A DNA stretch of 39,089 nucleotides from a virus. Below, one piece after another: positions 26,910-29,161 of this stretch (position 1 is its first letter; the number at the start of each line of letters is the position of its first letter). The translations under genes were made by a program, and so were the position numbers. The DNA is taken from positions 1 through 39,089 of IMG/VR virus record IMGVR_UViG_3300037247_001380; one strand, written 5' to 3'. The notes beneath the pieces are model-generated. The model made no database searches, had not been told where the DNA came from, and was given only the letters and a program-made list of their open reading frames with translations.

Positions 26910-27775
26910 AACTTCGTCACCCGCAGCTTGCGGTCTTCTTCCTGCGCTATCTCACGCATCCGCGCTTCGCTGGTGCCACCGCCGCTATCGGCGTGGGGAT
27001 GCTGCACCATCTGGGCCCAGGCGGCCCGTTGACCCTTCTGCCCACTCTGACGGCCCAGCACCAGCTCAATGTAGGCGGGCGCGATATGGGGCATCAGCGC
27101 CACCAGGTTGTCGAATAGCGCCTGCTCATCGGTGGTAAGTAGGTCGCCCCTGCCCTTCTTACGCTGGATGGTGCGCAGCACCGAGGCTAGTTCACTGGTC
27201 GCCATATCGTCCCCTTCCTGCATCTCCGCTTTCAACTGCCGGATGAATCGTGCTTCGTCGAACTGGTCGCCGGGGTCGGTCTTGCCGAGTATCCGCCCGT
27301 TCTGGCAACGGTCGTGCCGCACGATGCCGGTGGGCACCGCCCCGCTCTGGTCGAAGACCGCAATCATCACTGGCGGGATGCCGTACCGCAGGCAGTCCAC
27401 CGCTACCTCTTTCGCCAGCCGGTCGTAGATCGCATCGCTGAACGGCTCCTGGGCCGGGCTCTGGGCCAGCTCGTAGGAGATGCCGTACCAGTCGATGGCG
27501 TAGGTGCTGTTGGGGCCCCCGAAGCCCGCGCTGTAGGTCGGCTGCTGGTTATCGTCCAGCACCGTCCCCTGGCTGCCGTCCGTCCCGATGACGTGTGAGA
27601 AGCTGGAGCCCCACCCGTCCTGCTTGTTCAGGGGTGACTGTACCCAATTGAGCGCTGACTGTTTCTGCAACGCTGGCGTGGTGTCGCCACGGACGGCGTG
27701 AATCTCAATGAAGCGGATGGGCCGGGTGCGCGGCACCCAGAGCCACCGCTGCGGCATCACGCGAACGTCCGTCAC
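26906..27775 (-). CDS. Endolysin, N-acetylmuramoyl-L-alanine amidase, 289 aa
   Basis: It cuts the bond between MurNAc and the stem peptide. The GTG at 27775 is set by a GTGA overlap. The Amidase_2/PGRP fold is seen in FIEIHAVRG (His26), FSHVIGTDGSQGTVLDD, WYGISYELAQSP, IVRHDRCQNG (His154) and GKTDPG (Asp167), giving the His-His-Asp zinc ligands. Residues 191-289 are a helical C-terminal domain (MATSELASVLRTIQRKKGRG, ALFDNLVALMPHIAPAYIEL), probably for binding or oligomer formation. A ribosome binding site lies right before its Met191, so the domain may also be made alone. Confidence 0.85.
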   Translation of the reverse strand: MTDVRVMPQRWLWVPRTRPIRFIEIHAVRGDTTPALQKQSALNWVQSPLNKQDGWGSSFSHVIGTDGSQGTVLDDNQQPTYSAGFGGPNSTYAIDWYGISYELAQSPAQEPFSDAIYDRLAKEVAVDCLRYGIPPVMIAVFDQSGAVPTGIVRHDRCQNGRILGKTDPGDQFDEARFIRQLKAEMQEGDDMATSELASVLRTIQRKKGRGDLLTTDEQALFDNLVALMPHIAPAYIELVLGRQSGQKGQRAAWAQMVQHPHADSGGGTSEARMREIAQEEDRKLRVTKL

Positions 27776-28050
27776 GTCGTTGCTCCCATCATCGCAGCCC
27801 GGACTCGGTGGACGTGCCGCACCGACATCCCCACCAGGTCGGCGACCTGGCGGGGCCCGACGCCCCGCGCCCTGAGCTGCATTATCCGGCTGTTCCGTTC
27901 CCGGTTCAGGATGCCCCGCAGGCCACCGGGGTCGTCGAAGCGGCACGTCACCAGGGGGCAAGTGAGGCAGGTGGGGCTGACCTCGCAGCCGGTATCGCGG
28001 TACTCCACGTTCTCAGGCAGCGCGTCAGAGCGCACGCGGGCCAGGGTCAC
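27772..28050 (-). CDS. Helix-turn-helix protein with Cys cluster, 92 aa
   Basis: The GTG at 28050 overlaps the upstream stop by four bases. After a short start come CEVSPTCLTCPLVTC (four Cys at about 21-35) and RFDDPGGLRGILNRERNSRI, then a helix-turn-helix, ARGVGPRQVADLVGMSVRHV. This Cys-group-plus-HTH order is shared by small regulators in phages and plasmids. The Cys may bind zinc or an iron-sulfur cluster. It could control the adjacent lysis and methylase genes. Confidence 0.7.
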   Translation of the reverse strand: MTLARVRSDALPENVEYRDTGCEVSPTCLTCPLVTCRFDDPGGLRGILNRERNSRIMQLRARGVGPRQVADLVGMSVRHVHRVRAAMMGATT

Positions 28051-28229
28051 AGCAGCTTCTCCCCGCAGCGGTGCTGGCGGTACTCTTCCCGGCTCAGCCC
28101 GACGTGACAGCCGGGGCAGGTCAGCACCTGCGGCTGCCACCGGCGGCGTCCCGTTATCGTCAGCCCCTGCTCCACGACGGCGTACCGCACCAGGGGGCCG
28201 TCTGTCGGCGCCAGGCCCAGGCCGTTCAC
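28047..28229 (-). CDS. Zinc-finger mini-protein, 60 aa
   Basis: The GTG at 28229 overlaps the methyltransferase stop as GTGA. The C-terminal half contains CPGCHVGLSREEYRQHRC, a C2HC-type finger (CxxC, His, Cys). The first half (APTDGPLVRYAVVEQGLTIT) is probably a beta strand pair. It lies between the DNA methyltransferase and the helix-turn-helix gene and may act with either. Confidence 0.7.
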   Translation of the reverse strand: MNGLGLAPTDGPLVRYAVVEQGLTITGRRRWQPQVLTCPGCHVGLSREEYRQHRCGEKLL

Positions 28230-29161
28230 GCCACCCCTTTATCTGCGTCTACAATCCAGCGCCCTATCACTTCTGCGACCTGCGGGACGACGGCGTTGCC
28301 GAGTCCTCTAAGTCTGTCCACCCTAGCGGGAATCCCTGAAGCCACTCGACCCACTGAGGGTTCAACTGCCCATTGTCTCCCTGTCTCCGCTGCATCTCTT
28401 CCGATAGGTTCACACCCCTGGAGAGTTCCTCTTCCCGGCGCTGCAACGCTTCTTCGCTCATCCCGTGTCGGTAGTCCCGTGCCGCTGGCGTAGGCCACTT
28501 CTGCACCCGCGTTGACAGCGCTACGCTTCGCGCCTTCGGGTTCATGCCCGCACCCTGAGCGTGATGGTCGCGAACGTTCGGCGTGGGCCACGATGAAGAC
28601 TCGCTCTCTGAGGTGGGGTGCCCCGACATCGGCAGCGGATAGGTCGAACCAGACCGCATCGTACCCCGCTTCGGCCAAGTCCCTGAGTATCCCTCCAAAC
28701 ACCCGTCCATCATCAATTGACCGCAGCCCTGGTACATTCTCTGCCAAGACCCATCGGGGTCTAACTTCGCGAATGATTCGGTAGAACTCAGGCCAAAGCC
28801 AGCGAGGATCGGATTCTCCTGTGCGTCTGCCAGCGTGGGAGACGGGCTGGCAGGGGAAGCCGCCGCAGATGAGGTCGACGGAGGGGAGGCAACCGCCGCA
28901 TGGAGAAGATAGTCGGCGGGGCGATTCTCCCTCTCCCATTCCGTTACCGCCCCGTGCTTGGCATCCTGCGCCCGTGGCGTCGGCCATCGCTGCTCCGTGG
29001 CAGTCTCGTACGTCTCGAAACCGAGCAACATCGGGCCAGTGTCTTTCAAGGACTCGTCTGCACCAATCATCTATCTCAACCTGCCAGACAATCTCCAGCC
29101 CCGCCCTCTCCAAGCCGAGGTCAAGGCCACCGATGCCGCTGAAGAGAGACCCGGCCTTCAT
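28226..29161 (-). CDS. dcm: DNA (cytosine-5) methyltransferase, 311 aa
   Basis: It transfers a methyl group from S-adenosylmethionine to C5 of cytosine in a DNA target. Motifs in order: I LFSGIGGLDLGLERAG (6-21), IV GGFPCQPVS with catalytic Cys104, VI ENVPGL (141-146), VIII RERVFIVA (185-192), X RLRGLGNAVVP near the C-terminus. A 40-residue insertion rich in Gly, Ala and Cys lies between motifs II and IV. The target-recognition region (about 193-275) is low in hydrophobics. The ATGA overlap sets the start. Most of its DNA also encodes a second protein in another frame (28267-29070). Methylation may protect phage DNA from restriction. Confidence 0.92.
   Translation of the reverse strand: MKAGSLFSGIGGLDLGLERAGLEIVWQVEIDDWCRRVLERHWPDVARFRDVRDCHGAAMADATGAGCQARGGNGMGEGESPRRLSSPCGGCLPSVDLICGGFPCQPVSHAGRRTGESDPRWLWPEFYRIIREVRPRWVLAENVPGLRSIDDGRVFGGILRDLAEAGYDAVWFDLSAADVGAPHLRERVFIVAHAERSRPSRSGCGHEPEGAKRSAVNAGAEVAYASGTGLPTRDERRSVAAPGRGTLQGCEPIGRDAAETGRQWAVEPSVGRVASGIPARVDRLRGLGNAVVPQVAEVIGRWIVDADKGVA
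28267..29070 (-). CDS. Nested WPTP / WVEWLxGFP protein overlapping dcm, 267 aa
   Basis: This frame lies entirely inside dcm on the same strand, shifted by one base. It is not a random shadow: WPTP occurs at 29, 161 and 192, TWPKRGTMRSGSTYPLP at 131-147, and LNPQWVEWLQGFPLGWTDL at 236-254, followed by SATPSSRR. These are landmarks of a phage protein region known to me as an extension of, or neighbour to, phage cytosine methyltransferases. The start is uncertain (ATG 29070 or ATG 29031). Function is unknown; it might aid target choice of the methyltransferase. Confidence 0.65.
   Translation of the reverse strand: MIGADESLKDTGPMLLGFETYETATEQRWPTPRAQDAKHGAVTEWERENRPADYLLHAAVASPPSTSSAAASPASPSPTLADAQENPILAGFGLSSTESFAKLDPDGSWQRMYQGCGQLMMDGCLEGYSGTWPKRGTMRSGSTYPLPMSGHPTSESESSSWPTPNVRDHHAQGAGMNPKARSVALSTRVQKWPTPAARDYRHGMSEEALQRREEELSRGVNLSEEMQRRQGDNGQLNPQWVEWLQGFPLGWTDLEDSATPSSRRSQK

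Follow-up and report, generated by a model that had tools for sequence, protein, structure and literature searches.

The overlapping reading frames of a single stretch of phage DNA very probably specify the two subunits of one cytosine-5 DNA methyltransferase, an enzyme of the M.EcoHK31I kind. The window, meaning the whole stretch of 39,089 nucleotides that was analysed (IMG/VR record IMGVR_UViG_3300037247_001380), belongs to the genome of a tailed phage, in which genes for portal, major head, tape-measure and endolysin proteins are present; on the minus strand of the window the gene for a catalytic subunit, here called alpha, has a second gene, beta, nested within it in the +1 frame (Table 1). 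Both frames are conserved and separately constrained, the methyltransferase motifs are distributed between them, and alpha has the predicted fold of a methyltransferase core. In the enzyme we propose, alpha would form the SAM-binding and catalytic large domain, with motifs I–VIII, a C-terminal motif X helix and a long unstructured strap running from VIII to X, while beta, presumably started at its own internal ATG, would contribute motif IX and very likely also the region that recognises the target, that is, the small domain, with a putative role in specificity. The two chains would join on DNA to give the active enzyme, which would methylate phage DNA, probably to evade host restriction or for regulation.

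The locus had been picked out in a first-pass annotation made from the letters alone, and its coordinates, strand and two frames are borne out by translation and by domain matches (alpha to PF00145, E 1.2e-46, and also to TIGR00675; beta to phrog_1008, E 1.6e-31). Translation and alignment recover all of the motifs it listed for the cytosine methyltransferase (dcm) frame (I, IV, VI, VIII and X), and the three WPTP units, TWPKRGTMRSGS and LNPQWVEWLQGFPLGWTDL lie in the second frame as described. It was mistaken in placing the WVEWLQGFPLGW block on the same bases as RLRGLGNAVVP: the block, at 28318-28353, overlies alpha VGRVASGIPARV just before motif X, and RLRGLGNAVVP (28283-28315) is the next stretch, overlying beta TDLEDSATPSSR. 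Two short minus-strand frames follow the dcm gene in the window (27772-28140 and 28047-28238, with a 94-base mutual overlap), one of them helix-turn-helix-like and the other with zinc-ribbon-like cysteines.

Table 1. Features of the two overlapping methyltransferase genes, in window coordinates.
Feature	Position	Strand	Description or basis
Alpha, cytosine-5 DNA methyltransferase catalytic subunit	28226..29161	(-)	311 aa; motifs I-VIII and X; no in-frame motif IX
Beta, nested protein	28267..29070	(-)	267 aa, +1 relative to alpha; WPTP units and motif IX; starts at ATG
Alpha motif I (GSLFSGIGGLDLGLE)	29108..29152	(-)	Translation, family alignment
Alpha insertion, approximately residues 52-93	28883..29008	(-)	Before motif IV; boundaries approximate; low model confidence
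Alpha motif IV with catalytic Cys (GGFPCQPVS)	28838..28864	(-)	Translation, alignment
Alpha motif VI (ENV)	28733..28741	(-)	Translation, alignment
Alpha motif VIII (HLRERVFIVA)	28586..28615	(-)	Translation, alignment
Alpha motif X (RVDRLRGLGNAVVPQ)	28280..28324	(-)	Translation, frozen codons, alpha model
Shine-Dalgarno-like AGGT	29079..29082	(-)	Upstream of beta ATG (29068-29070); weak by itself
Beta WPTP unit 1	28975..28986	(-)	Translation
Beta TWPKRGTMRSGS block	28645..28680	(-)	Translation; W132 almost invariant across beta family
Beta WPTP unit 2	28579..28590	(-)	Bases shared with alpha VAHA after motif VIII
Beta WPTP unit 3	28486..28497	(-)	Translation, beta family alignment
VIII-to-IX/X segment	28373..28567	(-)	Mainly beta-frame constraint; proposed target-recognition region (beta) / disordered linker (alpha)
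Beta motif IX (LNPQWVEWLQGFPLGWTDL)	28309..28365	(-)	Same bases code alpha EPSVGRVASGIPARVDRL; frozen codons, placement against single-chain enzymes

Alpha is a cytosine-5 DNA methyltransferase by its PF00145 domain and by motifs I, IV (PCQ), VI (ENV), VIII and X, but it falls short of a single-chain enzyme, motif IX and a structured recognition region being absent from the chain on translation and AlphaFold modelling. The model is confident at residues 1–198 and 291–308, except for the insertion at approximately residues 60–90, and matches M.HhaI with Z 26.6 over 195 residues (rmsd 1.8), whereas residues 211–286, under beta, are disordered (pLDDT < 50). The alpha core is like that of M.HhaI, but single-chain enzymes such as M.HhaI and M.HaeIII also encode their recognition domain and motif IX in the frame of the other motifs. 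Early WPTP-like units resembling that of the window insertion were noted in three other loci (L064, L180 and L208).

The motif IX that alpha lacks is found in the other frame. In single-chain methyltransferase controls motif IX is RRLTPRECARLMGFPDTF, approximately 16 residues before motif X, and the C-terminal end of beta, LNPxWVEWLMGFPxGWTDL, sits where those enzymes have motif IX; a profile of beta motif IX found its best match just before motif X in 14/25 of them. Three related loci (L059, L423 and L101) have motif X following motif IX within the beta frame, so that beta is there the C-terminal half of a methyltransferase, as in M.AquI; forms of beta with an in-frame motif X of their own thus exist, which tells against the refutation foreseen in the first-pass annotation, namely that the nested protein would nowhere else be seen free-standing or fused. 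Motif X in these loci is PRVATGIKxRVNRLK, against GRVAxGIPxRVDRLK in the overlapping form, and the residues changed are among those encoding beta motif IX where the frames overlap. Directly after the beta of L059, and overlapping its end, lies an N4/N6 DNA methyltransferase-like frame (SPPYW; L059:3783-5216).

Between motifs VIII and IX the relatives diverge abruptly. Over 75 disjoint pairs, median identity was 80% in the catalytic part and 87% in the IX/X module, while the middle could not be aligned, and the exchanged middle was bounded on one side by the close of motif VIII (median -6 nt) and on the other by the point where beta motif IX begins (median +2 nt). Target-recognition regions are exchanged in just such a manner, and the sequence comparisons suggest that beta most likely holds this region. 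The number of WPTP-like units varied from 0 to 6 per beta. The report of a second recognisable protein over dcm holds, but the protein is not an unrelated one: most likely it provides this methyltransferase with the motif IX that alpha is without, and with its recognition part.

The division of constraint between the frames emerges from codon positions, an analysis that the first-pass annotation had called for. Differences in 83 disjoint pairs were assigned to alpha codon positions, alpha position 1 corresponding to beta position 3. Where alpha alone is coded, differences were concentrated at the third position, both before beta (20, 11 and 70% at positions 1, 2 and 3) and after it (17, 11 and 72%); over the doubly coded later catalytic motifs the figures were 30, 16 and 55%. 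From motif VIII to motif IX the profile reversed to the beta frame (59, 21 and 20%), as it did on motif IX itself (54, 20 and 26%), and the 59% at alpha position 1 indicates that beta is the constrained frame between VIII and IX, which alpha there largely shadows. Synonymous alpha codons of the IX/X module were frozen where beta needs them, in loci ranging from 33 to 73% GC: Ala GCT in 208/219, Pro CCC in 214/219 and 191/192, Gly GGT in 188/190, Val GTG in 181/189 and Asp GAC in 195/197. Directly after these, in LGNAVVPQ, synonymous codons were free to vary.

Alpha is nevertheless kept open in the middle: among 196 loci, which had been selected for a continuous alpha frame, it contained 0 stops there, against 2.7 expected per locus under beta-codon shuffling. 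Taken together, these sequence comparisons show that alpha and beta are both under selection. The proposal that one sequence carries two protein constraints proved sound, and the constraint strong, on synonymous shuffles (below), codon positions and frozen codons; it also accounts, as had been suggested, for the odd insertion and low-complexity target-recognition region of this dcm, because alpha residues 52–93 or thereabouts merely reflect, out of frame, an additional WPTP unit of beta, and the alpha segment from VIII to X is mostly an out-of-frame shadow of beta.

The same data bear on how beta is made. Programmed frameshifting, with ribosomes entering the beta frame once motif VIII is translated and returning to the alpha frame ahead of X, would yield an ordinary single-chain methyltransferase, and the strongest beta-frame constraint does start right where such a shift would be required; a single shift, moreover, would be sufficient in L059, L423 and L101, where motif X is in the beta frame. 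We nonetheless consider this very unlikely. The usual layout would require two shifts, alpha is open throughout the middle, the constraint on beta already holds far upstream of motif VIII, and M.EcoHK31I functions as two polypeptides (PMC3404938). Most loci, furthermore, have beta start codons of their own with Shine-Dalgarno-like sites: for beta ATGs located approximately 45–60 nt before the alpha PCQ codons, such a site was present in 75/101, compared with 15% among the remaining ATGs that are out of frame. The signal may owe something to alpha coding, and in the window the AGGT before the beta ATG is weak evidence alone because alpha codes there too.

A two-subunit enzyme in overlapping frames also fits the distribution of beta. 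A search of the second frame against phages (tblastn) found the nested protein in 118 phage records, with hosts including Mycobacterium, Escherichia, Paenibacillus, Lacticaseibacillus and Vibrio, and in those inspected it was the +1 frame of a dcm. An arrangement with alpha I–VIII and motif X both in frame 0 and beta in +1 was seen in 381/433 related loci, a set chosen partly by beta, in which some contigs are counted twice and part of the loci are unverified metagenome assemblies; the beta frame was likewise present in 80/80 relatives picked by alpha alignment alone, these being the 80 that most resemble the window alpha. The second frame, which might have been broken by stops or unconstrained in homologues, is there open and constrained. 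The median overlap was approximately 735 bases, and the titles of bacterial contigs cover approximately 15–20 phyla, besides phages. Probing with phrog_1008 gave matches in 14/200 genomes in the phylum of the Tropicimonas locus (where 59/100 genomes had any PF00145) and 2/199 in that of the Oscillospiraceae locus, all of them over alpha in the +1 frame. No free-standing beta was seen in these 399 sampled genomes, and among the loci there was no clear case of a single-chain enzyme whose WPTP and motif IX share the frame of I–VIII.

That beta never occurred without alpha in the sampled genomes having beta tells against a separate function, for example anti-restriction or regulatory, overprinted on a complete methyltransferase. 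Such a function would suit a protein with no recognised fold or family (its AlphaFold model is poor, pLDDT 58.8, and no family or match was found in Pfam, NCBIfam, PADLOC or PDB sequences), but the presence of motif IX in beta and its absence from alpha, and alpha's want of a structured recognition region, also speak against it, and we regard it as highly improbable.

Beta might lastly be no protein at all. Alpha synonymous codons were permuted within each gene, preserving the alpha protein and its codon usage, and in 81/81 loci the observed beta score was reached by 0/100 shuffles (median 138 vs 34 bits). The window second frame scored 204 bits, against a profile built without the window itself, where 1000 shuffles gave a mean of 59 bits (sd 11, maximum 108), and an open frame of at least 267 codons survived in just 1/1000. 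In held-out loci beta surpassed shuffles both over motifs I–VIII (median z 4.1; some of 50 shuffles reached the observed score in 26/199) and between VIII and IX (median z 6.5; 18/197). Part of the beta similarity over motifs VI–VIII is a shadow of alpha conservation, amounting to 59 bits; the remainder is not. The idea that the whole second frame is such a shadow, together with base composition, and untranslated, draws on those 59 bits, most of which come from the catalytic motifs, and on weak matches there to single-chain dcm genes, and is rejected at sequence level as next to impossible by the shuffles, the reversed codon-position profile and the frozen codons of the IX/X module.

Departures from the usual layout were also encountered. 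In approximately 18 loci, mostly from gut, motif IX was in the alpha frame and motif X in the third frame. L349, L353 and approximately 27 further loci, again mostly gut, had the IX/X module frame-shifted relative to I–VIII, and upstream of it a further motif IX that is degenerate; L353 contains a (CA)n tract reading HTHTHT, possibly a phase-variable frame switch. Tandem arrangements were seen in L131 (2823-4887), where a second beta lies over a degenerate motif X in the frame beneath, and in L051 (1216-2341), whose beta frame contains motif IX twice. In Paenibacillus phage Likha (L435, 1293-2330) beta ends upstream of alpha motif X, and IX and X are thus coded without overlap. Phosphoadenosine phosphosulfate reductase-like genes occur near the methyltransferase in L002, where annotated, and in L131 and L371, where recognised by eye.

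Nesting of this kind has a precedent. Lee, Kam and Shaw reportedly described in 1995 an M.EcoHK31I beta gene lying inside the alpha gene in a different frame, and in this feature the window is like it, its smaller-chain gene being inside the larger in the +1 frame. Of the two M.EcoHK31I polypeptides, the larger has motifs I–VIII, X and a predicted recognition domain and the smaller has IX, whereas in M.AquI the break falls after motif VIII and no later than where the recognition region ends, its smaller chain having IX and X (PMC3404938). Compared by published description, the window shares with M.EcoHK31I, and with M.EaeI, a larger chain bearing I–VIII and X and a smaller chain bearing IX; with motif X in alpha it is not of the M.AquI type, which L059, L423 and L101 resemble. 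It differs from M.EcoHK31I in being phage-borne and in the recognition domain, predicted in alpha for that enzyme (PMC3404938), where codon and structure evidence in the window points to beta. The same nested +1 layout is already annotated as two overlapping genes in Escherichia phage K1ind2 (an Mte8-like protein) and Paenibacillus phage Likha (LIKHA_51/52); for these we found annotation only and no test of the nested gene, and nothing on 'Mte8' in the literature beyond one passing mention. Contrary to the first-pass annotation the arrangement is not rare: known from M.EcoHK31I, it is met again in numerous dcm genes of phages and bacteria. No account of how widespread such nesting is was found among the open-access papers searched. 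The kind itself is already known; what is new here is the spread of the arrangement and the division of constraint between the frames.

On balance we favour, with some reserve, the broader reading that a frame-split methyltransferase family is widespread in phages and approximately 15–20 bacterial phyla, with its target-recognition domain in the other frame of the catalytic gene and its WPTP units (0 to 6 per protein) swapped as cassettes. With recognition written in the other frame, specificity could change while the catalytic subunit had merely to stay open there. In the records inspected, one or both frames are annotated as methyltransferase or hypothetical protein, so that many of the methyltransferases in databases may be only half of an enzyme. 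Claims that one bacterial or phage gene lies at length within another on the same strand usually meet with doubt; the present overlap is demonstrable from codon positions alone and recurs across many phyla. It offers a natural laboratory for two proteins sharing one sequence, and the loci provide a ready collection of naturally split methyltransferases.
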